From: Kineococcus xinjiangensis
Lineage (GTDB): Bacteria > Actinomycetota > Actinomycetes > Actinomycetales > Kineococcaceae
Direction: 5' to 3'
DNA length: 64,000 nucleotides
Assembly: GCF_002934625.1 (NCBI RefSeq)
Contig: NZ_PTJD01000004.1
Location: 62,001-126,000, forward strand
Position 1 is the first letter of the stretch. Every line of letters begins with the position of its first letter. Shown here one piece after another: positions 471 to 60,352 of the stretch. The position numbers were made by a program, and so were the translations under genes. The notes below the pieces were generated by a model, which made no database searches, had not been told where the DNA came from, and was given only the letters and a program-made list of their open reading frames with translations.

Positions 471-2012
471 GTGATCGGCAGCTACACCTCCGTGCTGCGG
501 CGTCGGGCGAGGGTGATCGCCCTCCTGACCGTGCTGCTGGCGTTGGCGGCCTTCCTCCTGCTGACGGCAGGAGGGCGCAACTACCACTCCACCGCGGTGA
601 TCCAGACCGGCAGCAACCTCGCCGCCCGCGTGGTGGGCCTGGACACGCCGTACGAGCCGACCGAGAGCCGCCTCGCCACGGAGGTGGAGTTCTTCTCCAG
701 CGACATGGTGGCCGAGCGGGCGCAGCGGGCCCTCGCCGCGCAGGGCTGGACCGAGACGGCGCAGGAGCTGAGCGAGCGCGTGAGCGTCTCGCCGCGCGGC
801 GTCTCCCCCCTGCTGGACGTGGTCGGCACCGCCAGCACCCCCGAGCGCGCCGAGCAGCTCACCAACGCCTTCGTCGAGGCCTACGTGACCCAGCGCCGCG
901 AGTCGCAGCGCGAGTCCCTGCAGGCGGTCGTCAGTGACCTGCTGGCCGAGCAGGAGGACGCCGAGGCGGAGCTGAACGCCCTCGACGAGCCCTTCGGCCA
1001 GGCCCCCGCCGTGCAGCGCGACCGCGCCGCCGCGCAGTCCTGGTACGACACCGTCACCGACCGGATCGAGCAGGCACGCCTGCGGCTGTCCGTGGACACC
1101 AGCGGCGTGTCGGTCCTGGCCGCCGCGGCCCCGGCCGAGGTGGAGGAGGGACTCACCACCCGGACGGCCGTGCCCGTCGCGCTGGTGGCCGGCCTCCTCG
1201 GCGCCTGCGGGCTCGTGCTCCTCCTCGACCTGCTCCGCGACCCGGTCCGGACGCGGGACGAGGCGCAGAAGCTCCTCTCCGCCCCGATGCTCGGCGAGGT
1301 CCCCACGGGCCGTCGGGACCAGCCCGGCACCGTCGCCGCCGTGACCGACCCCTCCTCGCCCGTCGCGACGGGCGCCCGGGGCGTGCGGCTGCGCCTGGAG
1401 CGCCTGCTCCAGGGCGCGACCCCGCGGACCCTCGTGATGGTCGCCACGCCCACGGACGTCTCCGAGGCCACGCTCGTCGCCGCGGCCCTGGCGTCCACCT
1501 GGAGCCGCACCGGCTCCCGGGTCGCGGTCGTGTTCGACGCCGGCACCTCGGCGCGCACGACGGTCGAGGCGCTGGAGACCCTCGAGGACGAGGTCGTCCC
1601 GGTGGGCGCGAACCTCCGCGCCCACGCCACGCGCACCCCCGGCGTCTGGGTCGTCCCCGCCACGCGCGGGGCGGACGGCGAGGCCGGCTTCCTCGAGCAG
1701 ACGTCGCCGGCGGCCGCGCTGGCCCAGCTGCACGAGGCCTTCGACGTGGTCCTCCTGGTGGACTCTCGCTCCGCGGCCCTGGACGCGGCCGCGATCGGCC
1801 ACCTCGCCGACGCCACGGTCGCCGTCTGCGCACTGGGCCGGACGCCGGCCGGGCGCCTGCAGCGCCTGGGGCAGACGCTCGGTGACTACGGCGCCCAGAT
1901 CGACGGCGTGGTCCTCACCAGCCCCGCGTCCCAGCACCGGCCCGGCGCCCCGCTGGAGAAGGTCGGCGAGACGGACAGCCGGCCGCAGACCCAGCAGCCC
2001 GTCGCCGGCTGA
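471..2012 (+). CDS. Wzz-like polysaccharide chain-length/co-polymerase protein with degenerate ATPase domain
   Basis: 513 residues from a GTG start. A transmembrane segment near residues 14-34, a periplasmic-type region with an Ala/Glu/Gln-rich coiled coil (about 140-200), and a second membrane segment near 228-250 give the Wzz/Wzc layout. The C-terminal half resembles the BY-kinase/ParA fold, but where a Walker A loop is expected it reads MVATPTDVSEAT, with no GKT/GKS, and there is no C-terminal tyrosine cluster. It is therefore probably a co-polymerase without kinase activity. The family sets polymer length together with a Wzy polymerase; the Wzy-like gene lies about 5 kb downstream. The start has only a weak ribosome site. 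Confidence 0.75.
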   Translation: MIGSYTSVLRRRARVIALLTVLLALAAFLLLTAGGRNYHSTAVIQTGSNLAARVVGLDTPYEPTESRLATEVEFFSSDMVAERAQRALAAQGWTETAQELSERVSVSPRGVSPLLDVVGTASTPERAEQLTNAFVEAYVTQRRESQRESLQAVVSDLLAEQEDAEAELNALDEPFGQAPAVQRDRAAAQSWYDTVTDRIEQARLRLSVDTSGVSVLAAAAPAEVEEGLTTRTAVPVALVAGLLGACGLVLLLDLLRDPVRTRDEAQKLLSAPMLGEVPTGRRDQPGTVAAVTDPSSPVATGARGVRLRLERLLQGATPRTLVMVATPTDVSEATLVAAALASTWSRTGSRVAVVFDAGTSARTTVEALETLEDEVVPVGANLRAHATRTPGVWVVPATRGADGEAGFLEQTSPAAALAQLHEAFDVVLLVDSRSAALDAAAIGHLADATVAVCALGRTPAGRLQRLGQTLGDYGAQIDGVVLTSPASQHRPGAPLEKVGETDSRPQTQQPVAG

Positions 2013-2183: not shown

Positions 2184-3128
2184 GACTCCCCGACCGAGAC
2201 GTCGCCGACCGGCGCGGCCCGACCGGCGACACCGCCCGGGCGGCGCCGGTGGCCGGCCGTCGTCGCGGGTGCCGTCGCGCTCGTCCTCGTGGCGACGTGG
2301 CTGGCCGTCGGGGAGCGGATCACGGCGTGGCGCAACGCCCCCACGGTCCTGTGGTCGACGTCCTTCAGCCCCGAGCCCGACTCCACCTGGCAGGAGGAGG
2401 CCGGCGTCGTGGTGGCCAGCCGGACCAACGCCGAGGTGGTGGCGGACGGACCCGAGGGCCGCGACGACGTCCTGGAGGTCACGTTCGGCGAGGACGGGTC
2501 CCGCTGGGGGATGGACTACCGCCACTCCTTCGAGGCCATGGGCCTCGAACCGCGGGAGGAGGTCTGGTTCAGCTACGACGTGTACCTGGACGAGGACTTC
2601 GAGTTCATCGGCGACGGCAAGCTCGGCGGGCTCGCCGGGATGGGAGAGAGCGTCGAGCCGCTCGAGGTGTCCTCGGGGGGTGAGTACGACGAGCGCTCCT
2701 TCTCGGTCCGGGCGATGTGGCGCGAGAACCGCGGCGTCGTGATGTACCTGTACGCCCGGCACGGCGACGGCAAGGACTTCGACGACGAGGACAACTACGG
2801 CTACGGCATCTTCGAGGAGTTCACCAAGGCCGACGGCAGCACCGACGACGTGCTGCGACCCGGCACGTGGCAGCGCATCGAGCATCGGGTGAAGCTGAAC
2901 ACCCCGGGGCGCAACGACGGCGTCTACGAGATGTGGATCGACGGGCACAAGGGCGTGTCGGTCACCGACGTGCAGTACCGCACCGCCGAGCACCCCGACC
3001 TGGAGGTGAACGCGGTGCTCTCCTCCTGGTTCTTCGGTGGCGGCAAGGACCAGTTCCCGACCCGGGTGAACACCGCGTGGACCGACGACTGGGCCCTGAC
3101 CGACGGGTACCTGGGCATCCGCGACTGA
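2181..3128 (+). CDS. Membrane-anchored polysaccharide lyase 14-like protein
   Basis: 315 residues if translation starts at the ATC at 2181; starting at GTG 2289 would cut into the membrane anchor. The N-terminus has a Pro/Thr-rich tail, an RRRW positive patch and a hydrophobic helix (about 27-43), so a type II signal anchor is likely. The rest is a beta-jelly-roll of the PL14 type: a YDVYLDEDFEF...GKLGGLAG strand pair, FSVRAMWR, YLYARHG, RVKLNTPG and a final WFFGGGKDQF block. PL14 relatives include alginate and glucuronan lyases; the substrate here is unknown and catalysis is not proven. It is the membrane-bound counterpart of the secreted protein at 3868 and lies in the exopolysaccharide locus. 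Confidence 0.72.
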   Translation: MDSPTETSPTGAARPATPPGRRRWPAVVAGAVALVLVATWLAVGERITAWRNAPTVLWSTSFSPEPDSTWQEEAGVVVASRTNAEVVADGPEGRDDVLEVTFGEDGSRWGMDYRHSFEAMGLEPREEVWFSYDVYLDEDFEFIGDGKLGGLAGMGESVEPLEVSSGGEYDERSFSVRAMWRENRGVVMYLYARHGDGKDFDDEDNYGYGIFEEFTKADGSTDDVLRPGTWQRIEHRVKLNTPGRNDGVYEMWIDGHKGVSVTDVQYRTAEHPDLEVNAVLSSWFFGGGKDQFPTRVNTAWTDDWALTDGYLGIRD

Positions 3129-3735
3129 GCAGCCGCCCCGGAGGACCGCCCCAGGGGCCGTCGCAGGGGCCGCACCCGCTCGCGGAACGTGATCGAGGGC
3201 AGCCGCGGGACCGCTCCACCCGACCGGACGGTCGGTCGACGCCGCCGCGCGCCGTGACACCCGGACGGGCCTGCGGCGCAACGGGATGCGCCGCGGCGAG
3301 CAGCGCGCACCACTGACCCGGCGACGGCATCCCCGAGGACCTCCACGCGCTGGCGCGGGCACGGCCGGCGGGTGCTGTGAGGGCCTCGCGGAGACACCGT
3401 GACGCGGGGGTGTGCACGGACCACCCCCGCGCCTCCGCTAGGTTGCCGCGGTCTGGTCCAGGGCGCGGGGGGTGCCTTTCCAGGATGCACCCCGTTGTCG
3501 ATCGTCGGCGCCTGCCGCCGGCGCGCCCGAGGAGGGCGCCCCTGTGCTGCCTACCCGAGTCCACGCTGCCCGCTGCCCCCGGTCCACCCGAGTGGCCCCC
3601 ACCCACCACACGGCCCCGAGTGCGTCGTTACGCACAGTGACAGGGTCGTCCAGACGGGTGGCATCACATCGGGGGGGTCAAGACCCCGGGGGCCGTGCCG
3701 AAGCCTTCATTGGCGACAAGCGGTGCCTCTGCACC
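3129..3735. other. Intergenic leader region, no gene seen
   Basis: No convincing gene. It has two modest hairpins: arms 3273-3280/3287-3294 (8 bp), possibly ending the upstream gene, and arms 3403-3412/3422-3431 (10 bp, loop of nine). The promoter for the riboswitch transcript should lie here, but I could not pick a clear -35/-10 pair. Confidence 0.5.
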
Positions 3736-3828
3736 GCGCACATCGACAAGGGCAAACCCGTCGCGAGGCGGGGGCGCAAAGCCACGGAGCTCACCGAGCC
3801 AGCCGGGTTGCCGAAAGTGGGGCCGTGT
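3736..3828 (+). ncRNA. Cyclic di-GMP-I (GEMM) riboswitch
   Basis: The aptamer core is easy to see: AAGGGCAAACC at 3748-3758, a 6-bp stem closed by a GCGA GNRA tetraloop (3757-3772), GGGGCGCAAAGCC at 3771-3783, then a second arm ending in GGGTTGCCG at 3805-3813. In the Vc2 aptamer numbering the base equal to G20 is G, which favours c-di-GMP over the cGAMP-selective variants. The first A of GCAAAG fits the stacking A47. It lies 40 bases before the start of the secreted lyase-like gene. The TCCT at 3837-3840 could pair with the AGGA of the ribosome site at 3860-3863, so control of translation is possible. Confidence 0.9.
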
Positions 3829-3867
3829 CGCCGGGCTCCTCAGTCGGAAATCGGCATGGAGGACCCC

Positions 3868-5733
3868 ATGAAGATCATTTCCCGCACCCCTTCCCGCATG
3901 GCAGTCAAGATCACGATGGCCATGGCCATCGCCCTGGGCGTGACCACCGGCGCCGTCCCCGGCGCCTCCCTCGGCGGGGCCGAGGTCGCACACGCCGCCG
4001 AGATCGGCACCCTCGGTGAGACCCTGCAGGACTACCTGGCCCGCGGCGCCGTCCAGGACGCCCCCAGCAACCTGACCTCCCCGGCCCGCGGCGTCTCCCG
4101 CATCCACCTGGACCAGGGCCAGATGAACGGCAACAAGGTGCGCGGCTTCATCTCCAGCGCCTCCGAGGCCACGCTCAGCTACCGCGTCTTCGTCCCCAAG
4201 GTCGTGCACGACACCGGCCTCGCCGTCGTCGACCTGAAGATGCCCGGCATGGCCGGCATCCCCTCGGGCAAGTCCCCCTGGTACGCCTCCGCCGGCGGCA
4301 CCCTGCAGCCGGACTCGTTCTCCGTGCGGCTCCACGCCCGCAAGTCCAGCGCCTACAGCGTCGGACACCCGTGGTGGGACGCCTACATCTACGCCCCCTA
4401 CGCCGGTGGCAAGACGTTCCGCGACTGGGGCATCCAGATCCCCATCACCAAGGGCCTCAACGGTGCCGGTGAGCGGATGCGGATCGTCAACGACCGCTGG
4501 TTCGACGTCAAGATCCGCATGAAGCTGAACACCCCGGGCGTCAACAACGGCGAGCTGGACATCTGGCTGGACGGTCAGCAGGGCATCAAGCTGCGCGACG
4601 TGCGCTGGCGCCCCTCGGGCCAGAACATCCCGATCAACCTGCTGATGGCCGACACCTTCTACAACCAGCCCGGCGCTCCGCGCGACGGCCACATCGACTT
4701 CGCGGACTTCCGCGTGACGCAGGGCCCCGAGGTCGCTCCGACCCCGACCCCGACGCCCACGCCCACCCCGACGCCGACCCCGACGCCCACGCCCACCCCG
4801 ACCCCGACCCCGACCACGAGCACCTCCACCGTGTTCGTCTCGGACACCGCGTACCGCACGGTGCGCAACGGCTGGGGCCCGGTGGAGAAGGACCGCAGCA
4901 ACGGTGAGTCGGCAGCCGGCGACGGCCGCACCCTGAAGATCGGCACCAGCTCCTACGCCAAGGGCCTGGGCGTGCACGCCGGCTCCGAGGTCGTCGTGCC
5001 CGTCAACGGCGCCAAGACCTTCAGCGCGCAGGTCGGCGTGGACGCCGAGGTCGGCACCTCCGGCTCCGTCGCCTTCCAGGTCTGGGCCGGCTCCACCAAG
5101 CTGGCCGACAGCGGCCTGCTGCGCGGCGGGCAGGCCCCCAAGGCCCTGACCGCCGACGTCACCGGCCGCTCGGAGATCCGCCTCGTCGTCACCGACGGCG
5201 GCAACGGCAACTCCAAGGACCACGGCGACTGGGCCGACGCCAAGCTCATCGGCCAGTCCACCACCGTCGCCCCCACGGCCCCGGCGCCCGCCCCGACGAC
5301 GACCACCACCCGGTTCGTCTCGGACACCGCGTACCGCACGGTGCGCAACGGCTGGGGCCCGGTGGAGAAGGACCGCAGCAACGGTGAGCAGGCAGCCGGC
5401 GACGGCCGCACCCTGAAGATCGGCAGCGCCACCTGGGCCAAGGGCCTGGGCGTCCACGCCGGCTCCGAGGTCGTCGTGCCCGTCAACGGCGCCAAGACCT
5501 TCAGCGCGAAGGTCGGCGTGGACGGCGAGGTCGGCACCTCCGGTTCCGTCGTCTTCCAGGTCTGGGCCGGCTCCACCAAGCTGGTCGACAGCGGTCTGAT
5601 GCGCGGCGGGCAGTCCGCCAAGACCCTCACCGCCGACGTCACCGGCCGCTCCGAGGTCCGCCTCGTCGTCACCGACGGCGGCGACGGCAACGCCAAGGAC
5701 CACGGCGACTGGGCCGACGCCAAGCTCTCCTGA
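3868..5733 (+). CDS. Secreted PL14-like protein with two NPCBM carbohydrate-binding domains
   Basis: 621 residues from ATG 3868, with GGAGGA at 3858-3863. A signal peptide (1-44, AHAA cleavage type) is followed by a PL14-like jelly roll (about 60-285; FSVRLHARKS, MKLNTPG and DGHIDFADFRV blocks), a Pro-Thr linker (about 291-318), and two NPCBM domains (about 322-467 and 482-621). Each NPCBM has the FVSD, KGLGVHAGSEVVVPV and RLVVTDGG signatures of galactose/peptidoglycan-glycan-binding modules. The protein should be exported and bind or cleave a surface polysaccharide. The c-di-GMP riboswitch just upstream implies control by the motile/sessile switch. The match to the membrane-anchored protein at 2181 suggests paired action on the same polymer. 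Confidence 0.85.
   Translation: MKIISRTPSRMAVKITMAMAIALGVTTGAVPGASLGGAEVAHAAEIGTLGETLQDYLARGAVQDAPSNLTSPARGVSRIHLDQGQMNGNKVRGFISSASEATLSYRVFVPKVVHDTGLAVVDLKMPGMAGIPSGKSPWYASAGGTLQPDSFSVRLHARKSSAYSVGHPWWDAYIYAPYAGGKTFRDWGIQIPITKGLNGAGERMRIVNDRWFDVKIRMKLNTPGVNNGELDIWLDGQQGIKLRDVRWRPSGQNIPINLLMADTFYNQPGAPRDGHIDFADFRVTQGPEVAPTPTPTPTPTPTPTPTPTPTPTPTPTTSTSTVFVSDTAYRTVRNGWGPVEKDRSNGESAAGDGRTLKIGTSSYAKGLGVHAGSEVVVPVNGAKTFSAQVGVDAEVGTSGSVAFQVWAGSTKLADSGLLRGGQAPKALTADVTGRSEIRLVVTDGGNGNSKDHGDWADAKLIGQSTTVAPTAPAPAPTTTTTRFVSDTAYRTVRNGWGPVEKDRSNGEQAAGDGRTLKIGSATWAKGLGVHAGSEVVVPVNGAKTFSAKVGVDGEVGTSGSVVFQVWAGSTKLVDSGLMRGGQSAKTLTADVTGRSEVRLVVTDGGDGNAKDHGDWADAKLS
4738..4815 (+). repeat. Pro-Thr codon repeat (linker)
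   Basis: A run of alternating ACC/ACG and CCG/CCC codons encodes (PT)n between the lyase-like domain and the first NPCBM domain. Such linkers keep catalytic and binding domains apart in secreted enzymes. The low-complexity DNA is prone to length change. Confidence 0.9.
4831..5730 (+). repeat. Tandem duplication of the NPCBM coding segment
   Basis: Segment 4831-5250 and segment 5311-5730 align with a constant offset of 480 bases and long stretches of exact DNA identity, for example the 4833 and 5313 starts. This points to a recent duplication or gene conversion inside one gene. Confidence 0.9.
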
Positions 5734-5741
5734 CCCCTCCG

Positions 5742-5791
5742 CACGCACGAAGGCGCTGCGCCGGCACTCCGGCGCAGCGCCTTCGTGCGTG
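5742..5791 (+). terminator. Perfect 23-bp hairpin after the secreted lyase-like gene
   Basis: Arms 5742-5764 and 5769-5791 are exact reverse complements around a CACT loop at 5765-5768. It begins eight bases after the stop codon and lacks a U-tract. The next gene starts only 17 bases downstream. Confidence 0.85.
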
Positions 5792-5807
5792 TGACACGAT
5801 CCGTCCT

Positions 5808-6950
5808 GTGATGCACGAGGCAGCGACCGACGCGGTGGACCCCCGGGACGGACACGCCCCCGGTGCGGGGGGACGGCAGGTGTCGGTGTGCGTGCACAAC
5901 GTCGACGGGGTGAACCCCTACGGGGCCGAGATCGCCTCGCTGCTGGACCGCGACGGCCTGCGGACCACGCTCGTCGACGCCGCCAACAGCGAGCACCCGC
6001 CCGCCTCCGGGGTGCGCTGGCGGCGCCTGCTGCCCGAGAGCTTCGGCACCACCTCCCACGGCAGGCAGCTCCTCTCGCTCATGCGCGGGCTGGGCGCCAC
6101 GGCGTGGTCGAGCCTCGTGCGCCGCGACGTGGTCCTGGTGGCGTTCACGCGCTTCCCGCTGGAGGACCTCGTCCTCGCCGGGCTGGGCGCGCTGGGCCGG
6201 CCGGTGGTCGTCGTGGTGCACAACCCCGTGCCCCGGGAGGCCGAGTCGCGCCTGGCGCGCCTGGCCCGCAGGGCGCTGCTGCGCCGGGCCCGCGCGGCCG
6301 TGGTGCACGCGGAGCGGCTGCGCGAGCGCGTGGACCCGCTGGCCCGGGACCGGGTGCACGTCTGCCCGCACCCGCCGTACGTGCAGACCGTGCCGGCGGG
6401 CACGCCGGAACTCACCCTCGACCCCGGGCGGCAGTGGCTCGCCTTCGTCGGCGCCCTGCGCTGGGACAAGGGCGTCGAGTTCGTGCCCCGGGTCCTCGAG
6501 CGCATCCCCGAGGAGCAGCGCAGGAACCTCGGCCTCGTCGTCTGCGGACGCGGGCAGCTGCCCGAGGGCGAGTGGGAGCGCCTGCGCGGGCTGGGCGTCG
6601 CCGTCCTCGACATGACCTCCACCGCCCCGGTGCCGCAGAGCGCGTTCCTCGACGTGCTGCGCAACCGGCCCCTCGTGCTGGCCCCCTACGTGGCGGCGAC
6701 CCAGAGCGGGACGGTCATCCTCGCCGTCTCCATGGGGTGCCGGGTTCTCGCGTTCGACGAGGGCGGCATCCCGGACGTCCTGACCGACGAGGGCCTGGTC
6801 CCCACGGGAGACGTCGAGGCCATGGCCCGCGCAGTGGTCGAGAACCGGGGCGGCGACGCGCGCGAACCCGTCGAGTCGTGGGCCCGCACCGCGTCCGCCG
6901 CCTGGGCGGACGTCGTGAAGGCAGTGGGCCGAACGGCTCATCACGCCTGA
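5808..6950 (+). CDS. Glycosyltransferase family 4-like (GT-B fold)
   Basis: 380 residues from GTG 5808 (an ATG follows at 5811). The C-terminal half has the GT-B donor-site pattern: FVGALRWDKGVEF, then LVVCGRGQLP, and a late TQSGTVILAVSMGCRVLAFDEGGIPDV block like the EX7E region of GT4 enzymes. It probably adds a sugar to a lipid-linked repeat unit on the cytoplasmic face of the membrane. No Shine-Dalgarno is visible and only 16 bases separate the start from the preceding terminator hairpin, so the mRNA may be leaderless or made by read-through. The acceptor sugar cannot be predicted. Confidence 0.78.
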   Translation: MMHEAATDAVDPRDGHAPGAGGRQVSVCVHNVDGVNPYGAEIASLLDRDGLRTTLVDAANSEHPPASGVRWRRLLPESFGTTSHGRQLLSLMRGLGATAWSSLVRRDVVLVAFTRFPLEDLVLAGLGALGRPVVVVVHNPVPREAESRLARLARRALLRRARAAVVHAERLRERVDPLARDRVHVCPHPPYVQTVPAGTPELTLDPGRQWLAFVGALRWDKGVEFVPRVLERIPEEQRRNLGLVVCGRGQLPEGEWERLRGLGVAVLDMTSTAPVPQSAFLDVLRNRPLVLAPYVAATQSGTVILAVSMGCRVLAFDEGGIPDVLTDEGLVPTGDVEAMARAVVENRGGDAREPVESWARTASAAWADVVKAVGRTAHHA

Positions 6951-7182
6951 GCCCGAGGGGTGCGCGCGTTACAGTGTGAGCACAGGACGTGCTGCCTCGG
7001 ATCCGTCGCACGCACCACGGCTCGCCCGTCCGGGACCGCTCCGCCCCACCCCTCGTGAGGGGTCCGCGGACGTGCCCGGCGGTGGTGTGGCCGTGGTCGT
7101 GCCAGCCCGGGGCCGCGGGCCATCGTGGGCGGCGGGGAACGACCCGGGTCCTCTCGACTGTGGAGAAAGGCAGGATCGCAGC

Positions 7183-8514
7183 GTGCTGCCCTCGGCGCGG
7201 TTGGGAACACCGCCGCACACCCTCCCCCCCGCGACGCCCGCCCCCAGCCGCAGGCAGGCCTCCCCGATGACGACCGCGGGTTCCGGGGGGACCGGGCGCC
7301 GCGAGGGACGCTGGGTCACCTGGTACGCGGTCGCCGTCCTGGTCCTGGGCGCCGGTGTGCTCGCGATCGTGGGGGGCTCGACGCAGAGCCTGGTGTTCGC
7401 CCTCTGGATGTGCGCCTACGCGGTGGCCGCCCTGGGCCTGCTCGACGACCTCTTCCGCTCGCGGCGCCCCTTCGCCGTCCCGCTCCCGCTCGCGGGCTTC
7501 GTGGCGCTCGCCGCGGCCTCGGTCCTGTGGACCGTCTCCCCCGAGCTGACGAACCGTCGCGCCCTGGGCATCGCGGGCACCGTCACCGTCGGGGTGTTCC
7601 TCGCGCACCGGCTGCGCCCGATCGACCTCCTCGACGCGCTGCGGCGCGCGGTCCTCATCATCGCCGTCGCCTCCCTCCTCCTCTACCTCAGCGGCTCGCC
7701 CCTGGCGCTGGACGAGGTGCACGGCACGCTGCGCGGGATCCTCATCACCAAGAACACGCTGGGGCGGATGCTCGCCTTCGGCATCCTGGCCGCCGTGGCG
7801 GTCGCCCTCCTCGACCGCGCCCGCAGGCGGCGGAGCGCGGTCAGCCTGCTGGTGATGCTGGGCGCGCTGGCCCTGACGGGATCGACGGGCGGGATGCTCA
7901 CCGCGGCGGCCGCGCTGGGGGTGCTGGTGCCCGTCGCCCTCGCGACGCAGCGCCGCGCGCGGGCCGCGGTGCTGGGCGCCGGGCTGTTCGCGACCGCGAC
8001 CGCCCTGGTCGTGGCACCGCGCCTCAGCCTCACCGGTGTCACCGGTGTCGTCGGGGAGGACGCGACGCTCACCGGGCGCACGGAGATCTGGGAGGCCTCG
8101 CTGCGGGCGCTGGCGGACCGGCCGCTGCTCGGCTACGGCTACGGCGCGTTCTGGCACGAGGACCTCGGTGCGGCCGCGTCCGACCACATCCGGGCGCGCC
8201 TGCAGTGGAACGTGCCCAACGCGCACAACGGGTTGCTGGACATCGCCCTCGACCTCGGGGTGGTGGGCGCCGCCCTCGCGGTCGCCCTGCTCGTGGGCGT
8301 GCTCGTGCGCGGCGTCCGCGACGTGTGGCAGGGACGCATCTCCGCCGGCTCCCTGCGGCTGGCGGTGCTGGCCGCCACGGTCGCCTCCAACCTGGCGGAG
8401 ACGGGTCTGATGCAGCACAACGCGCTGCCGACCATCGTCCTCGTCGCGGCGCTCGCACTGCCGGATCCGCGTGCCCGCGGACTGCAGCCCCGCCCGGCCC
8501 CCGGACCCGCATGA
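7183..8514 (+). CDS. O-antigen ligase/Wzy-like polysaccharide polymerase
   Basis: About 443 residues from GTG 7183; ATG 7267 is the alternative. The longer start is favoured because codons 7183-7266 keep a strong G/C third-position bias and GGAGAAAGG lies at 7162-7170. The protein is a polytopic membrane protein with about ten hydrophobic helices. A large loop carries LTGRTEIWEASLRALADRPLLGYGYGAF and NAHNGLLDIALDLG, the signature of the O-antigen ligase/Wzy (PF04932) family, including the conserved GRT-xxW and H-N motif. It should join repeat units or transfer them outside the membrane. Its stop overlaps the flippase start by four bases (ATGA). Confidence 0.85.
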   Translation: MLPSARLGTPPHTLPPATPAPSRRQASPMTTAGSGGTGRREGRWVTWYAVAVLVLGAGVLAIVGGSTQSLVFALWMCAYAVAALGLLDDLFRSRRPFAVPLPLAGFVALAAASVLWTVSPELTNRRALGIAGTVTVGVFLAHRLRPIDLLDALRRAVLIIAVASLLLYLSGSPLALDEVHGTLRGILITKNTLGRMLAFGILAAVAVALLDRARRRRSAVSLLVMLGALALTGSTGGMLTAAAALGVLVPVALATQRRARAAVLGAGLFATATALVVAPRLSLTGVTGVVGEDATLTGRTEIWEASLRALADRPLLGYGYGAFWHEDLGAAASDHIRARLQWNVPNAHNGLLDIALDLGVVGAALAVALLVGVLVRGVRDVWQGRISAGSLRLAVLAATVASNLAETGLMQHNALPTIVLVAALALPDPRARGLQPRPAPGPA

Positions 8515-9902
8515 GGCCGCTCCGCCTCCTCGCCGGGCGCATGTCGGGCCTGGCGCGGGGCCGCAGCGGCCGTGCCACGTCGTGGGCGATGCTCGGCCAG
8601 ATCACCGCGATCGTCGCCTCCACCGCGAACTTCCTGCTGCTGGCCAGGCTCGTGGGGCCGGCGGAGTACGGCCTCGTCGCGGGCACGTGGGCGCTGGTGC
8701 TGGCGCTCTCGCCCATCGCCACGCTGGGCTCGGACCGCCTCCTCATCCGCGACGTCGGCGCTTCCCGCACCACCCCGGGGCAGGCGCTCGGGGCGGCACT
8801 GCTGACCGCCGCCGTCGGCTGGCTGGTCGTCGTGGGCGGGCTCGCGGCGCTGCACTCCCTCCTGCTGCCCCAGACGCCGCTGCTGCTGCTGCTGGCCCTG
8901 GCGCTCGCCGACGTCGTCGCCCTGGGCGTGTCCGTGCTGGTCACGGCGCTGTGCTTCGCCTCCGGCAACGCGCGGGCGGCGGGCATCTCCTCCATCGTGG
9001 TCAACGCCACGAAGCTCCTCGCGGTGGTCACCTTCGCCCTCACCGGCAGCGGCGACCCCGTCACGTGGGCGATGATCTACGCCGGCTACGCGCTCGTGTC
9101 CGCGGCGGGTCAGCTGACGTTCGCGCTGTGGCGCTTCGGCCGCCCGACGGTGCGCGGGTACCGCTTCACGCAGCGGGTCCGCGAGGGCCTGCCGTACAGC
9201 GGCAACGTCGTGGCGATGGTCGTGCAGAACGACGCGGACAAGACGCTGCTGGTGCGCAACGGCCTCACCGTGGAGGCCGGCCACTACAGCGTCGCCTACC
9301 GCCTGGCGTCGATGGCGTACCTGCCGGTGCTGGCGGTGCTGCAGGTGATGCTCCCCCGCTTCTTCGCAGCAGGGGAGGACGGTGGCATCAGAGCGACCGC
9401 GGCGTTCGCGCGGCGGCTGGTGAAGCCGCTGCTGGCCTACGCCGTCTTCGCGACGCTCGCGCTGCTGGTGTGCGCCCCGCTCGTCCCCCTCGTCGTCGGG
9501 GAGCAGTACCGCGGGTCCGTCCCGCTGCTCATGCTGCTCGCCCCGCTCGTCATCGTGAAGGTCGTGCAGTCGGTGACCGGCGACGTGCTGACCGGCGCCG
9601 GCAAGCAGCACGTCCGCACGATGTGCGTCGGGGCGACCGCGGCGACGAACGTGGCGGCCAACCTGGTGCTCATCCCCGTCATGGGCGTCTCCGGGGCCCT
9701 CGTGGCGACGTTCCTCGCCGAGGTGCTCCAGGCGGTCCTCCTGCTCCTCGCGGTGCGCCGGAACCTGCGCGCGGCTCCCCCCGCGAAGGACGCCGGAGCA
9801 GCACCGGAAGGCTCCCCCGTGGGAGCGCCCACCGGAACCGGTCAGGCCGGCCCCGTCCCGCAGCCGCACCCCGCGGGCGGTGCGCAGGGTCCGGGCCAGT
9901 AG
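8511..9902 (+). CDS. Wzx-type polysaccharide flippase (MATE/MOP superfamily)
   Basis: 463 residues, about 12 membrane helices. It starts with a basic cytoplasmic tail, then WAMLGQITAIVASTANFLLLARLVGPAEYGLV, typical of polysaccharide transporters (PF01943/PF13440). The start ATG overlaps the stop of the polymerase gene, so the two are coupled. The role is to flip undecaprenyl-linked repeat units outward for the polymerase. The Pro/Gly/Ala-rich C-terminal tail of about 40 residues is poorly conserved in kind and probably cytoplasmic. Confidence 0.87.
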   Translation: MRPLRLLAGRMSGLARGRSGRATSWAMLGQITAIVASTANFLLLARLVGPAEYGLVAGTWALVLALSPIATLGSDRLLIRDVGASRTTPGQALGAALLTAAVGWLVVVGGLAALHSLLLPQTPLLLLLALALADVVALGVSVLVTALCFASGNARAAGISSIVVNATKLLAVVTFALTGSGDPVTWAMIYAGYALVSAAGQLTFALWRFGRPTVRGYRFTQRVREGLPYSGNVVAMVVQNDADKTLLVRNGLTVEAGHYSVAYRLASMAYLPVLAVLQVMLPRFFAAGEDGGIRATAAFARRLVKPLLAYAVFATLALLVCAPLVPLVVGEQYRGSVPLLMLLAPLVIVKVVQSVTGDVLTGAGKQHVRTMCVGATAATNVAANLVLIPVMGVSGALVATFLAEVLQAVLLLLAVRRNLRAAPPAKDAGAAPEGSPVGAPTGTGQAGPVPQPHPAGGAQGPGQ

Positions 9903-9928: not shown

Positions 9929-10972
9929 GTGCATCCCGTCACGTTCGAGATCACGGTTTCGCCCACGGACTGGCGCCACGCCGTCCACGTGCTGCCCCAC
10001 CAGCTGCGGCAGTGGGCGGGGCAGGTGGACGACGTCCAGTTCACGCTCAACCTGCAGCAGCGCCAGGGCAGGTACGGCGCCGCCGCCCAGCAGGGCCTCA
10101 CCGTCCTGCAGGACCTGCTCGCCGACCTGTGCAGCCGGTACCCGAACGCGCACGTCCGGGAGGTGGACTACTCCCCCGCCATGCAGGCGGAGGTCAGCGA
10201 GCGCTTCTTCGACGGGCGGCCTGTGCCGCTGAAGAACCACGACGGCGGCCCGTTCTACTCGTACTTCTTCGGCTGGCACGCCGCGAAGCACGACATGGTG
10301 CTGCACACCGACTCCGACATGCTCTTCGGCGGGGGCAGTCAGACCTGGGTGGGCGAGGCGCTCGACGTGCTGCGCACGAACCCCGACATCCTGTGCACCG
10401 CTCCCCTGCCGGGGCCCCCCACTCCCGACGGCGAGTTCCCCGAGCGCATCCGCGCCCAGCACACGGCGATGGGCGGGCCGCCCCGGCGGGCGGAGATCGG
10501 CTCGCTGGGGTACCGCCTGCACGGGTGCAGCACCCGCCTGTGGCTGTTCGACCGCACCACGCTCGGCCGGCGGCTGGGCGGGATGCCCCTGGAGGGACCC
10601 CGGCTGCGCAGCAACCTGCGGGCGCGGGTGGAGGGCAACCCCCCCTTCGAGCTGCCCGAGAAGAGCATGAGCCGGCGGATGAACCAGCTCGGGCTCTCGC
10701 GCATCGACTTCCTCGGCAGCGACCCCGGCATGTGGAGCCTGCACCCGCCGATGCGCTCGGAGCTCTTCTACGCCGAGCTGCCCGCCCTGGTGGCTCGCGT
10801 GGAGGCGGGCGACCTGCCCCCGGAGCAGCTGGGCGACTACGACGTCAACGACAGCCTCGTCGACTGGACCAGCGCGCGGGAGGCCCTGCGCCAGCAGACG
10901 TGGTCCAAGCGGCTTGCCCGGCGTGCGAAGGCGTCGGCGAGCGGTCGCCTGAGGGCGCGCGCGCGCTCCTGA
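9929..10972 (+). CDS. Glycosyltransferase-like protein (GT-A type) of the exopolysaccharide locus
   Basis: 347 residues from GTG 9929, with TTGGAGG at 9917-9923. There is an HTDSDMLFGGG motif near residue 127, a DxD-like metal site of GT-A enzymes, after a region listing a target hand-over pattern (FFGWHAAKHD). The C-terminus is rich in Arg/Lys/Ser. I cannot place it in a named subfamily; it resembles actinobacterial proteins annotated as hypothetical glycosyltransferases. It follows the flippase by 26 bases and is probably in the same transcript. Confidence 0.65.
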   Translation: MHPVTFEITVSPTDWRHAVHVLPHQLRQWAGQVDDVQFTLNLQQRQGRYGAAAQQGLTVLQDLLADLCSRYPNAHVREVDYSPAMQAEVSERFFDGRPVPLKNHDGGPFYSYFFGWHAAKHDMVLHTDSDMLFGGGSQTWVGEALDVLRTNPDILCTAPLPGPPTPDGEFPERIRAQHTAMGGPPRRAEIGSLGYRLHGCSTRLWLFDRTTLGRRLGGMPLEGPRLRSNLRARVEGNPPFELPEKSMSRRMNQLGLSRIDFLGSDPGMWSLHPPMRSELFYAELPALVARVEAGDLPPEQLGDYDVNDSLVDWTSAREALRQQTWSKRLARRAKASASGRLRARARS

Positions 10973-11018: not shown

Positions 11019-12125
11019 TCAGTGCGGCGCCGGGCCCGTCGGCGCGGCGGGCTCGACCGCACCCGGGGTCGGGCGTCCCCGCTGCTGCTGCGGGAGGCGA
11101 GGTCCGCTCGAACGCCGCGGCCGTTGCCCCAGGACCGCCAGGCTGACCAGAGCGAAGCGCCCGAACACCAGCTCGAAGACCACCGGGGCCGCCAGCCCCG
11201 CGGCCAGGCTCAGCACGAACAGCACCGCGGTGTCCTCCAGCCCGAGCAGTCGCTGAGCGGTGATCCGCGCGCCGGCGGTGCCGAAGACGTGCAGCAGGTA
11301 GATGCCGTAGGAGAAGCCGCCCAGCCACATGAGCGCCCTGGAGCGCAGCCGGTGGCGGACGGCGAGCAGCAGCACGATGCCGAGCACGCCGACGGCGAGG
11401 CTGAGGGCCCGCAGCGCGGACTCCGACTCCGGCTCGCCGCTGACGATGGTGGTGAGGCGCAGGGCGTACAGCGGCAGGAACAGGACGACGGCGCCGAGGA
11501 CGAGACGCGGGGTGAGCAGCCGGTCGCCGTGGCGGTGCAGGCCGTAACCCAGGAGGAAGAAGGGCAGGAGCCGCAGCGCGCCGCCGACGCTGAAGACGTT
11601 GACGGCGGCAGGCACGTCGACGAGGACGTGCACGACGACGGCGACAGCGAGGGCCGCCGCCCAGCCCCGCACCGACCTCAGGACGCCGTACGCGTCCAGG
11701 ATCCCGACGGCCACGAAGATGAGGAACACCGCCTGCACGAACCAGAGGTGCTGGTAGCCGTAGACGTAGGCCTGCCAGATGTCACCCAGGTCCGTCCGGG
11801 TGTTGGTCCCGGGGACGACGTGCTGCACGAGGAAGAACGCCGTGGCGACGACGACGAACGGGACGAGCAGCCGTCGCGCCTTGCCGCGCACCAGCGGCCG
11901 GATCCCGGCCGGCGCGAACAGGGGCCGGTGCGCGTACACGTAGCCGGAGATCGCGGAGAACAGGGGCATCCGCAGGTCCTCCAGCGCGCGGTAGGAGAAC
12001 CGCCAGAGGGAGTCCTCCGGGACCCGCAGCCCGTAGGCGGAGTCCGAGCCGATGACGTGGCCGGCCACCATCAGCACGATGGCGATCCCTCTGAGCGATT
12101 CGATCCCGACGTCCTTGCGCGCCAT
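11019..12125 (-). CDS. Acyltransferase 3 (OafA/YrhL-like) membrane protein
   Basis: 368 residues with about ten hydrophobic helices. The N-terminal SLRGIAIVLMVAGHVIG holds the Arg and His residues (R-X10-H) conserved in the acyltransferase 3 family (PF01757). A late WLGGFSYGIYLLHVFG block is also typical. The family moves acetyl or other acyl groups onto extracellular polysaccharides or lipids. The gene is convergent with the flippase/glycosyltransferase operon and co-directional with two glycosyltransferases, so polymer decoration is likely. The C-terminal 35 residues are Pro/Arg-rich and disordered in character. Confidence 0.85.
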   Translation of the reverse strand: MARKDVGIESLRGIAIVLMVAGHVIGSDSAYGLRVPEDSLWRFSYRALEDLRMPLFSAISGYVYAHRPLFAPAGIRPLVRGKARRLLVPFVVVATAFFLVQHVVPGTNTRTDLGDIWQAYVYGYQHLWFVQAVFLIFVAVGILDAYGVLRSVRGWAAALAVAVVVHVLVDVPAAVNVFSVGGALRLLPFFLLGYGLHRHGDRLLTPRLVLGAVVLFLPLYALRLTTIVSGEPESESALRALSLAVGVLGIVLLLAVRHRLRSRALMWLGGFSYGIYLLHVFGTAGARITAQRLLGLEDTAVLFVLSLAAGLAAPVVFELVFGRFALVSLAVLGQRPRRSSGPRLPQQQRGRPTPGAVEPAAPTGPAPH

Positions 12126-12222
12126 GTACCGTCTCCTGTGGTCGTCCGCTCAACTACGACCGGCAGGGTAGCCGGGTCCGGAGGCGCTCCAGACCACGGC
12201 CCGACGAGCAGGGAAGCGTCCC

Positions 12223-13152
12223 TCAGTCCCGGGGACCGGGCGGAACCAGGTCCTCGCTGCTGAGTTCACCGGCCTCCCGGCACACGACGCCGTCCAGGCG
12301 CCGCAACGCCTCCAGCGTCTCGAGCTGGTGGTCGTCGACGTGCTCACCGCGCGAGGCGCGCCGGGGGACGACGACGGGGCGGGCCCCGAGTTCGAGCAGC
12401 CGGATGACCGAACCGACGCCGGCGTGGGTGACCACCGTCGTCGCCTCCCGCGCCAGCCGGTCGAACTCCTCGCTGGAGACGTGCTCCAGCACGGTGCCGG
12501 GCAGGTCCGTGCGCCGCGTCGAGCCGAGCTGCCAGGTCACCTCCGCATCCGCGGGGAGCACGGCCTTCACCCGGTCGACCAGGGCGTCGAAGCGGTAGGG
12601 CCGGATCGTTCCGACGGTGACGAAGATCCGCGGCGGGCCCGGCGGGAGTTCCCGGCGCTCCCCCGCCCTGAAGGAGTCGGCGATCGAGACGTCGAAGCGC
12701 CACCGCCGGCCGACCCACTGCTCGTGCTGGGTGTAGAGCCGCACGGAGGGCACGCGTTGCAGGATCCTGCCGGTCAGCGAGGGGCCCGAGAAGCGGGAGA
12801 CGCTCTCGACGTAGTGCGCCTCGCAGCGGAAGAGGCGTGCGACGAGGAGGGCCGGAACCGCCACCGCGGCGCCGGTGCTCACGACCGCGTCGAAGCGCTC
12901 GCGGCGCAGCAGGCGCACGAACGTCGGCAGCGCCCGCAGCACACCCCCCAGGCTCCGCGGGGCGACGTAGGGGACGTGGGTGACCGTTCGGTCGCCGAGC
13001 AGCGAGCGGCTCTGGTCGTGGTCGAACGTCACCCAGTGCGAGTCGGGACGAGCCTCGATCAGCTTGCTGATCAGCATCAGTTCCGCGAGGTGCCCACCGG
13101 TGGACGCGACGAGGAGCAGCCGGCTGCGCCGGGGCAGGACCTGAGGATCCAT
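12223..13152 (-). CDS. Fused PssD/PssE (Alg14/Alg13-like) glycosyltransferase
   Basis: 309 residues. The first half (about 8-150) starts LLLVASTGGHLAELMLISKL, the Alg14/PssD pattern; the second (about 165-300) has IFVTVGT, VTWQLGSTR and VVTHAGVGSVIRLLELGARPVVVPR, the Alg13/PssE (GT28 C-terminal) pattern. In many bacteria these are two proteins that form one UDP-sugar transferase on the membrane; here they form one chain. Relatives add glucuronic acid or glucose to a lipid-linked sugar. There is a 19-base gap to the GT2 gene upstream, so co-transcription is expected. Confidence 0.85.
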   Translation of the reverse strand: MDPQVLPRRSRLLLVASTGGHLAELMLISKLIEARPDSHWVTFDHDQSRSLLGDRTVTHVPYVAPRSLGGVLRALPTFVRLLRRERFDAVVSTGAAVAVPALLVARLFRCEAHYVESVSRFSGPSLTGRILQRVPSVRLYTQHEQWVGRRWRFDVSIADSFRAGERRELPPGPPRIFVTVGTIRPYRFDALVDRVKAVLPADAEVTWQLGSTRRTDLPGTVLEHVSSEEFDRLAREATTVVTHAGVGSVIRLLELGARPVVVPRRASRGEHVDDHQLETLEALRRLDGVVCREAGELSSEDLVPPGPRD

Positions 13153-13171
13153 GGAGAGCGGGCCGCCCGGC

Positions 13172-14137
13172 TCAGAGGTCGAGGCGCCGGTAGCGCAGCG
13201 AGCCGGTCACGTGACCCGCCGCCTGCCCCGCGGCGCTGAGGAACTCGTAGACGTCGTAGCCGTCGCGCACCCGCACCAGTCGCGCCAGCAGGCGGCCGTA
13301 GGTGCCGACCCCCATGGCGCGCAGCCTGGTCCGCCGGGGCATGCCGTACTGCTCCGCCCGCTGCGCCGCAGCGACCTCGGAGACGCCCCAGCGGTAGCGC
13401 TGCCGCATGGCCTGGCGCGCCGACGGCCGCAGGCGGTAGTGCACGATCGCGTCGGGCGCGGCGGCGATCTCGAACCCGGCGGCGTAGGCGCGGAAGCACC
13501 ACTCGTTGTTCGCCCCGAACAGCAGCTCCGGGTCGAAACCCCCGATGGTCTCGGGAACCTCGCGGCGGAAGCCCAGCGTGCCCGCCGGGGCGAACGTCCA
13601 CCCCTGGTGCCGAAACGGCCACCGGGAGGCGTCGTCGGCCGGCTTCCCGCGCAGTTGCGGGAAGCGGTCGGCGTTGATGCTGCGGCTGTCCCAGATGGCG
13701 GTGACCATCGCCGAGGAGTCGAGGGCCGCGGACATCGCGGCGACGTAGCCGGGGTTCACCGTGTCGTCGGCGTCGAGGAAGACGGTCTTCGCCGCGGCGG
13801 ACTCGACCATGCACACGTTGCGGGCGTTGGAGTCGTACCCGGCGCTCTCGCACTCGACGATCCTCGTCGGCAACCCGCGGGAGGCCTCCCGGGCGATCTC
13901 GACGGAGTCGTCGTGCGTGGCGTTGGAGACCAGGAGCAGCTCGAAGCGCGGCGCCCCGCGCTGGTGCTGCAGCGAGGTGACGGTCTCCCCGAGCGTGTCG
14001 CGGTTGCTCGCGAAGCACACGGTCACGGTGATGTCGAAGTCACCGGCCGCCGCTTCGTGCTCCGGCGACCGGTACAACTCGCGGACAGTGCCCACGACAG
14101 GAACGTGCACGGTCCCCTCCACGGGCCGAGCATACAA
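13172..14137 (-). CDS. Glycosyltransferase family 2
   Basis: 321 residues. The GT-A core has ITVTVCFASNRDTLGETVTSLQ near the N-terminus, KTVFLDADDTVNPGY (the DAD/DxD metal site) near 125 and FDPELLFGANNEWCFRAYAAG near 205, the usual GT2 acceptor-side block. It is a soluble cytoplasmic enzyme that should add one sugar of the repeat unit. A GTG 27 bases inside the frame is an alternative start, since the first nine residues carry no family feature. It is followed by the PssD/PssE gene. Confidence 0.85.
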   Translation of the reverse strand: MYARPVEGTVHVPVVGTVRELYRSPEHEAAAGDFDITVTVCFASNRDTLGETVTSLQHQRGAPRFELLLVSNATHDDSVEIAREASRGLPTRIVECESAGYDSNARNVCMVESAAAKTVFLDADDTVNPGYVAAMSAALDSSAMVTAIWDSRSINADRFPQLRGKPADDASRWPFRHQGWTFAPAGTLGFRREVPETIGGFDPELLFGANNEWCFRAYAAGFEIAAAPDAIVHYRLRPSARQAMRQRYRWGVSEVAAAQRAEQYGMPRRTRLRAMGVGTYGRLLARLVRVRDGYDVYEFLSAAGQAAGHVTGSLRYRRLDL

Positions 14138-14201: not shown

Positions 14202-14795
14202 TCAGCCCTCGCTCGCCCGGACCTGCGAGCGCGCCTCGCGGAGGTCGACGCGGGTCAGACGCCGCCCCCACTGGGTCTTCGGCGGGCGCACCTCGGCCAC
14301 GGGCGCCAGGGCACGGAAACCCGCAGGCACGTCCTCGATGACGAGTGCGCCCGGGCCGACGAGGGCGTCGTCACCCACACTCACCCCGCCGAGCACCATG
14401 GCTCCCGGCCCGAACTGGACGCGGTCGCCGATGTTCGGGCGCCCCTCGCCGTTGCCGGCGGCCACACCGAGGGTGACGTTGTGCCGCAGCATGCAGTCGT
14501 TCCCGATCACCGATCCCGGCACCGCGACGACCCCCTGCGCGTGCGGCAGGTGGACGCGGCGCCCGACCTGCACGTCGGGGGGCAGTTCGATGCCGTAGAG
14601 GTTGACGACGAGGACCCGGGCCACGCGGAACAGGTTCCACCGCAGGCGGCCGCGCAGGGACCGGTCCCCCGCGGCGGCCCGCCCGAGCCGGTGCACGGCC
14701 AGCGCGTGGAAGCCCGGGCTCAGCGGCCGGCGGTTGTGCGTGACGAAGTCCTCGCGGATCAGCTGGCGCAGCGACGGTGCAGGCGATAGTTCCAT
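14202..14795 (-). CDS. Serine O-acetyltransferase/colanic-acid-type acetyltransferase (LbH)
   Basis: 197 residues. The central and C-terminal parts are left-handed beta-helix repeats (VQVGRRVHLPHAQGVVAV, VIGNDCMLRHNVTLGV, NIGDRVQFGPGAMVLGGVSVGDDALVGPGALV), preceded by a short helical cap (LIREDFVTHNRR) like CysE and WcaB. In this polysaccharide context it more likely acetylates a sugar than serine. It is the first gene of a three-gene minus-strand run with the two glycosyltransferases downstream, though a 64-base gap separates it from the GT2 gene. Confidence 0.8.
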   Translation of the reverse strand: MELSPAPSLRQLIREDFVTHNRRPLSPGFHALAVHRLGRAAAGDRSLRGRLRWNLFRVARVLVVNLYGIELPPDVQVGRRVHLPHAQGVVAVPGSVIGNDCMLRHNVTLGVAAGNGEGRPNIGDRVQFGPGAMVLGGVSVGDDALVGPGALVIEDVPAGFRALAPVAEVRPPKTQWGRRLTRVDLREARSQVRASEG

Positions 14796-60236: not shown

Positions 60237-60352
60237 CAGGTGCAGTTCATCTCAGCTCCATCGCACCTGGCGGTAGCACCCTCACCCGATTCCTCGGGGG
60301 GTTGCTGCGGCGTCGTCGAGCCAGGACTCTCGGCCGCTCTGGATGGTGGATG
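60237..60352 (-). ncRNA. SAM riboswitch (S-box/SAM-I clan) upstream of metFE
   Basis: Read on the minus strand: AGAGCGGCCGAGAG (60340-60327), CCTGGC then GACGCCGCAGCAACC, a small CCCGA/TCGGG hairpin, GGGTGCTACC and GCCAGG then GATGG. The GCAACC and GGTGCTA blocks are the S-box core; CCATC/GATGG can form P1, and CCTGGC/GCCAGG a second helix. Details depart from textbook SAM-I and lean to the SAM-I/SAM-IV mix. CAGGTGC at its 3' edge can pair with GCACCTG downstream (arms 60263-60269/60237-60243), an alternative hairpin for an off state. Its place before metF fits. Confidence 0.78.

Follow-up and report, generated by a model that had tools for sequence, protein, structure and literature searches.

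The closest described relatives of the RNA analysed here are Vc2 and Vc1, the c-di-GMP-I (GEMM-I) riboswitches of Vibrio cholerae, and the bases given as key to ligand recognition by Vc2 are G20, A47, A48 and C92 (PMC3764141, PMC4744006). Actinobacteria furthermore possess the RsiG-(c-di-GMP)-WhiG switch, among whose described targets are the type IV pili of Rubrobacter (PMC8325347), and characterized PL14 alginate/glucuronate lyases include vAL-1 (PDB 3A0N) and AkAly30 (5GMT).

We compared these systems with a locus in a stretch of 64,000 nucleotides from Kineococcus xinjiangensis (contig NZ_PTJD01000004.1, positions 62,001 to 126,000 of the forward strand; hereafter the window), where a c-di-GMP-I aptamer precedes the coding sequence of a secreted-looking PL14-like protein. 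Judging from sequence comparison, we propose with a probability of roughly 70% that this is a canonical c-di-GMP-I riboswitch, probably translational, acting on a lyase-like gene of a polysaccharide cluster that is read by a flagellar sigma factor.

Identity and spread of the aptamer

A cmscan of the window placed the Rfam family RF03167 (c-di-GMP-I-GGC) at positions 3742..3816 of the plus strand, over the full-length model and with 68.8 bits (gathering cut-off 59, E 3.4e-14), and the model of the parent family, RF01051, matched the same place with 65.3 bits (gathering cut-off 35). Both covariance models score over gathering, in agreement with the original prediction of a c-di-GMP-I riboswitch; the aptamer had been recognized correctly, whereas the start assigned to it, 3736, does not hold, as the match begins at 3742. 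The predicted core elements, GGGCAAACC (from 3750), the GCGA tetraloop (of the GNRA type), GCGCAAAGCC and GGGTTGCCG, are all present in the window sequence. In our own assignment of Vc2 numbering to window positions, G20 corresponds to 3751, A47 to 3778 and C92 to 3811, and the letters found there are G, A and C. The G that had been predicted at the c-di-GMP specificity position is indeed in place, and the alignment supports that the base at position 20 is the one expected for c-di-GMP and not for cGAMP.

Taken at face value, the top Rfam label would make this RNA a c-di-GMP-I-GGC variant with an altered ligand, and RF03167 does outscore RF01051 (68.8 vs 65.3 bits). However, at model position 37, which we equated with Vc2 position 47, the RF03167 consensus reads G (GCGAAG), whereas the window has A (GCAAAG). 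We infer that GGC in the family name denotes positions 20, 47 and 92; a G would hence be expected at position 47, the window has A at 3778, and the label was rejected. Because the RF03167 consensus carries G where A47 lies, the best-scoring name probably designates the wrong subclass, the window RNA probably being a plain, canonical c-di-GMP-I aptamer. The GGC model, moreover, mostly picks up A47 RNAs among the loci collected here: of the 97 loci that the RF03167 and RF01051 searches had yielded, a script parsed 93 and flagged 7 of them, the window included, as G47; each of these 7 proved to be a parsing artefact within a ...GCGCAAAG or GACGCAAAG stretch, while of the 4 unparsed loci L067, a weak match of 31.7 bits, does have G at that position. 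We therefore regard an altered ligand as very unlikely. A cGAMP (GEMM-Ib) riboswitch would share the same scaffold, yet position 20 is G at 3751 and not A, which leaves this reading the least credible of those considered. For the canonical aptamer that we favour, the ligand would be c-di-GMP.

Aptamer and downstream gene share a strand, the aptamer lying in the gene's leader with 51 bases between its end at 3816 and the ATG at 3868, and Kineococcus sp. TRM81007 shows the same placement of aptamer, leader and gene, with an aptamer of 64.2 bits ahead of a protein 63-67% identical to that of the window. Promoter-like site, aptamer and gene follow the same arrangement in both, the orthologous comparison comprising two loci, those of the window and of TRM81007. 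In our genome set, where the window's genome stands alone in its genus and TRM81007 counts as a second genus, a protein matching both the PL14 and the NPCBM part occurs in 2 of 12 family genomes, each time with the aptamer. The aptamer family reaches much further: RF01051 matched in 5 of the 12 family genomes (4 over cut-off) and in 30 of 297 genomes of the order (28 over cut-off), and RF03167, at E 0.001, in 49 of 394 genomes of the class (12 over cut-off). As c-di-GMP-I is thus not rare in actinobacteria, the novelty of a regulatory link of the kind originally suggested cannot rest on the riboswitch by itself. Sorted by simple sequence motifs, with near-identical loci included, the targets of the 97 loci are pilins (31), CAP proteins (12), BldC-like proteins (8), PL14-NPCBM proteins (2) and others or undetermined ones (44).

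Several further loci deserve mention in their own right. The window's genome contains a second c-di-GMP-I riboswitch (L034, 6099-6181, corresponding to G000:C5:18098-18180; 54.5 bits with RF01051) upstream of a small secreted-looking protein with ATG at 6194, whose DUF4330 match is weak and below cut-off; by eye, the aptamer-protein pair of L072 resembles it. The Shine-Dalgarno sequence (SD) adjoins the aptamer 3' end in L034, L072, L073 and L242 (the L073 contig ends inside the gene), the last three being leaders from the Kineococcus family, and in these four SD masking by the P1 side appears plausible by eye. In eight of the 97 loci (L042, L046, L047, L052, L228, L233, L234 and L236), aptamers lie near small BldC-like MerR/HTH proteins, assigned by motif and checked with Pfam for one of the eight; by this route c-di-GMP might feed into a developmental regulator at the RNA level. 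Aptamers also precede response-regulator genes, as recognized in the sequence by eye, in L005, L009 (the same place as L048) and L049, and in L235 an EAL-domain protein, where a feedback loop is possible. Two actinobacterial aptamers, L066 and L209, carry the cGAMP-type base A at position 20, L209 upstream of a CAP-type protein. The window itself also holds a SAM riboswitch at 60255-60349 on the minus strand (54 bits vs 44.4).

The lyase-like gene and its polysaccharide cluster

The gene behind the aptamer (3868..5733, plus strand) starts at ATG 3868, preceded by the SD GGAGGA (3858..3863, plus strand), ends with the stop at 5733 and encodes a secreted-looking PL14-like protein of 621 residues with twin NPCBM domains. 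Residues 1-45 resemble a Sec signal peptide by eye, residues 96-265 match Polysacc_lyase_14 (PF21294) with a modest 45.2 bits (cut-off 27; E 1.2e-11 for the whole protein), and NPCBM (PF08305) matches in two stretches with 296.5 bits (gathering cut-off 23.9, E 3.2e-89). This is the composition that had been foreseen, an exported, lyase-like enzyme with carbohydrate-binding modules, as far as domain matches and a signal-peptide-like start can indicate it. The two NPCBM copies (4834..5250 and 5314..5730, both plus strand) are identical in 391 of 417 bases, which suggests a recent tandem duplication; the TRM81007 orthologue has one such stretch where the window protein has two.

A paralogous PL14 protein is encoded upstream of the aptamer leader and outside its reach (2289..3128, plus strand), and of the two proteins it gives the stronger PL14 match (Pfam E 4.7e-31). 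Against PDB sequences, the PL14 part of the window protein matched the alginate lyase 5GMT as its sole hit (E 6.2e-05), and the paralogue matched both 5GMT (E 1.8e-10) and vAL-1 (3A0N, E 2.3e-07). K124, S152, R154, Y173 and Y175 are common to the window protein, its TRM81007 orthologue and the paralogue in an alignment for which, as for the Pfam search that gave the orthologue 52.6 bits with PF21294, the TRM81007 protein lacked its first seven residues. In the paralogue, S-x-R and Y-x-Y fall into the same columns as in vAL-1, and K, S-x-R and Y-x-Y are what we take to be the catalytic residues of that enzyme. An AlphaFold2 model of the PL14 domain, built from four sequences, had a mean pLDDT of 33.9 and was unusable.

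The gene is surrounded by polymer synthesis functions, all on the plus strand and assigned with Pfam: a Wzz-type chain-length protein (471..2012; PF02706, E 1.6e-05, 25.6 vs a cut-off of 25.5), a glycosyltransferase of group 1/4 (5808..6950), a Wzy/O-antigen-ligase-type polymerase (6976..8514; PF04932) and a Wzx-type flippase (8511..9902, start approximate; PF01943, PF13440). There follows a frame at 9959-10969 for which no Pfam match was found, beyond which genes for an acyltransferase and for two glycosyltransferases lie on the opposite strand. By its Wzz, Wzx, Wzy and glycosyltransferase matches, this neighbourhood is an exopolysaccharide cluster, as the predicted position of the lyase-like gene beside polymer synthesis genes had implied. 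The TRM81007 locus keeps this order of matches from Wzz up to the frame ending at 10972, lacks the block at 11019-14137 and matches again at 14202-14795.

Promoter-like site, leader folding and direction of control

Upstream of the aptamer, at a distance of 40-65 bases, lies the FliA/WhiG-type promoter-like site GTCAAG-N14-GCCGAA (3677..3702, plus strand), which in the TRM81007 leader reads CTCAAG-N14-GCCGAA at the same place and spacing; TCAAG and GTGCCGAAGC are kept between the two leaders, with 14 bases between TCAAG and GCCGAA. The flagellar/WhiG consensus is given as TAAA and GCCGATAA (PMC8325347). Elsewhere in the window's genome, which encodes one FliA/WhiG sigma factor over the curated cut-off (C1:225372-226052), the pattern [CG]TCA-N14-17-GCCGA occurs upstream of a flgB-like rod gene, of a flbD-like/motA pair and of flhA, the identity of flbD and the exact starts of these sites being judged by eye; the flbD-motA site has CTCAGC, not CTCAAG, as its first block. 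The scan with this loose pattern gave 17 matches in 60 kb, mostly in coding sequence, a looser pattern had three further matches in the window, and the strict pattern TCAA-N14-16-GCCGAA occurred 5 times genome-wide vs 6 for the backward control, which is no excess. No sigma-70-like promoter was found in 3100-5900.

The site recurs before other aptamers. With the pattern [CGT]TCAAG-N13-16-[GC]CGA within 130 bases upstream of the aptamer and background windows drawn from the same loci on both strands, a first set (57 loci, each place counted once and without L003, L004, L041, L043 and L048, which repeat the same places; thinned by upstream similarity to 50 non-redundant ones) showed the site in 12 of its 50 loci, compared with 9 of 1554 background windows, the pattern having been chosen after viewing those same loci. 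In a second set, held out by locus and not by genome, for which the pattern was fixed, it occurred in 9 of 36 loci (40 before thinning) vs 11 of 1134 (p 1.1e-9), and with five further places, of which one had fewer than 130 bases upstream, in 9 of 40 (45 before thinning) vs 12 of 1270 (p 2.0e-9); the six weakest matches of the RF03167 class search (27-30 bits) were left out. Genomes absent from the first set contribute 13 of the 40 second-set loci, and 4 of these 13 have the site. By target class over all 97 loci, the site precedes pilin genes in 17 of 31 cases, CAP genes in 5 of 12, BldC-like genes in 1 of 8, PL14-NPCBM genes in 2 of 2 and other or undetermined targets in 0 of 44. The window leader is probably transcribed from a flagellar-sigma (FliA/WhiG-type) promoter.

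Directly before the aptamer, the leader contains the 5' hairpin GCGGUG-CCUCUG-CACCGC (3720..3737, plus strand), whose TRM81007 counterpart GCGGUG-GGAA-CACCGC differs in the loop and keeps the stem. The strand GGCGACA (3712..3718, plus strand) might form an outer helix with UGUCGCC (3826-3832), which was present in one aptamer-forced fold and absent from the fold of a longer RNA; a counterpart in TRM81007, GGCGGC/GCCGUC, can be seen by eye and did not form in the TRM81007 folds. A possible anti-SD, GGCUCCUC (3834..3841, plus strand), pairs with the SD when the aptamer is forced, with probabilities of 0.76-0.90 at the four best SD positions, and is not conserved in TRM81007. Kept in both leaders is TCGGRAATCGGCRTGGAG, a block before the SD, part of which (UCGGC) is complementary to GCCGA of the aptamer. 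Forcing the aptamer lowered the unpaired probability of the SD from 0.44 to 0.24 (0.60 to 0.25 in the longer RNA) and freed the start codon from 0.32 to 0.49 (0.10 to 0.65); the TRM81007 leader stayed unchanged (SD 0.28 to 0.31, AUG 0.34 both times), and the window leader folded no better than shuffled sequences (z -0.66). As no T-run terminator was seen in 3100-5900, control at the level of translation appears likelier.

Both the promoter and the direction of control allow another reading. The promoter-like site might be a product of chance, with the leader read from a different promoter, as the strict pattern without genome-wide excess (5 vs 6) and the three other looser-pattern matches in the window would allow; against this stand the same site and spacing in TRM81007, the related sites at flagellar genes, the enrichment before further aptamers (p 2.0e-9) and a 3100-5900 region in which no sigma-70-like site was found, so that we consider a chance site unlikely and keep to the flagellar-type promoter. 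As to direction, our guess, at about even odds, is that high c-di-GMP turns the protein OFF: the aptamer-forced fold has the SD paired to a greater extent, and the SD adjoins the aptamer 3' end in the genome's second c-di-GMP-I riboswitch (L034). Against OFF, those forced folds expose the start codon instead of hiding it. The freed start codon would suit an ON switch, by which c-di-GMP raises the protein for attachment or matrix building, with the NPCBM domains being adhesive and the PL14 fold acting as a binder. For Vc1, the V. cholerae class I riboswitch ahead of gbpA, ON behaviour has been described (PMC4744006), and pilin genes are frequent targets in the class (31 of 97 loci). Yet the SD is less accessible in the forced folds (unpaired probability 0.44 to 0.24) and the putative catalytic residues are kept, and we give the ON switch a substantial chance that stays somewhat below one half.

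Proposed wiring and comparison with known systems

On the OFF reading, a flagellar-sigma (FliA/WhiG-type) promoter would transcribe the leader, and binding of c-di-GMP would fold the aptamer and alter access to the ribosome site. At low c-di-GMP, in the motile state, the enzyme would be made, and the product of 3868-5733, a secreted and probably polysaccharide-cleaving protein, could loosen or process the cell's own polymer. More generally, we tentatively suggest, at only slightly under even odds, that many actinobacteria possess a module of a flagellar-clade sigma promoter and a c-di-GMP-I riboswitch in one leader, recruited here to remodel the cell's own exopolysaccharide. If this module exists, surface genes (type IV pilin, CAP, exopolysaccharide lyase) would be under two controls, the motility sigma factor and, at the RNA level, c-di-GMP; where RsiG exists, c-di-GMP would act twice. 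This would provide a testable rule, namely that flagellar sigma reads the pilin-, CAP- and lyase-type c-di-GMP riboswitches of actinobacteria, and it would connect c-di-GMP directly, at the RNA level, with the remodelling of exopolysaccharide in a Gram-positive lineage with about a hundred GGDEF matches. The window's genome, of 4.6 Mb, has 100 of them, 99 being above cut-off and no fewer than four domains being split into two matches, which is a high density.

While the sensor class is known and common, the wiring of promoter, riboswitch and lyase looks new. A literature search, mostly without subscription papers, found no paper joining 'c-di-GMP riboswitch' and 'polysaccharide lyase'; among the matches listed (titles and abstract openings), there was no report of promoter-riboswitch coupling, and the main text of PMC8325347 does not contain the word riboswitch.

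The window aptamer shares with Vc2 and Vc1 the scaffold, G20/A47/C92 and a GNRA tetraloop, and like Vc1 before gbpA it is part of a leader that precedes the gene of a secreted, surface-acting protein (PMC4744006). Unlike both, it has a PL14-NPCBM target in a polysaccharide cluster and is accompanied by a flagellar-type promoter-like site and an extra 5' hairpin. As in the PL14 lyases vAL-1 and AkAly30, PF21294 is over cut-off in the window protein, and the K, S-x-R and Y-x-Y residues are found in it and in its paralogue; in contrast to these enzymes, the window protein is fused to NPCBM and located in a biosynthesis cluster, and its PL14 part matches 5GMT alone (E 6.2e-05). Finally, the window resembles the RsiG-(c-di-GMP)-WhiG switch of actinobacteria in the proposed combination of a flagellar-clade sigma promoter with c-di-GMP control, which in that system works through an anti-sigma protein (PMC8325347) and, as we propose, works here through RNA.
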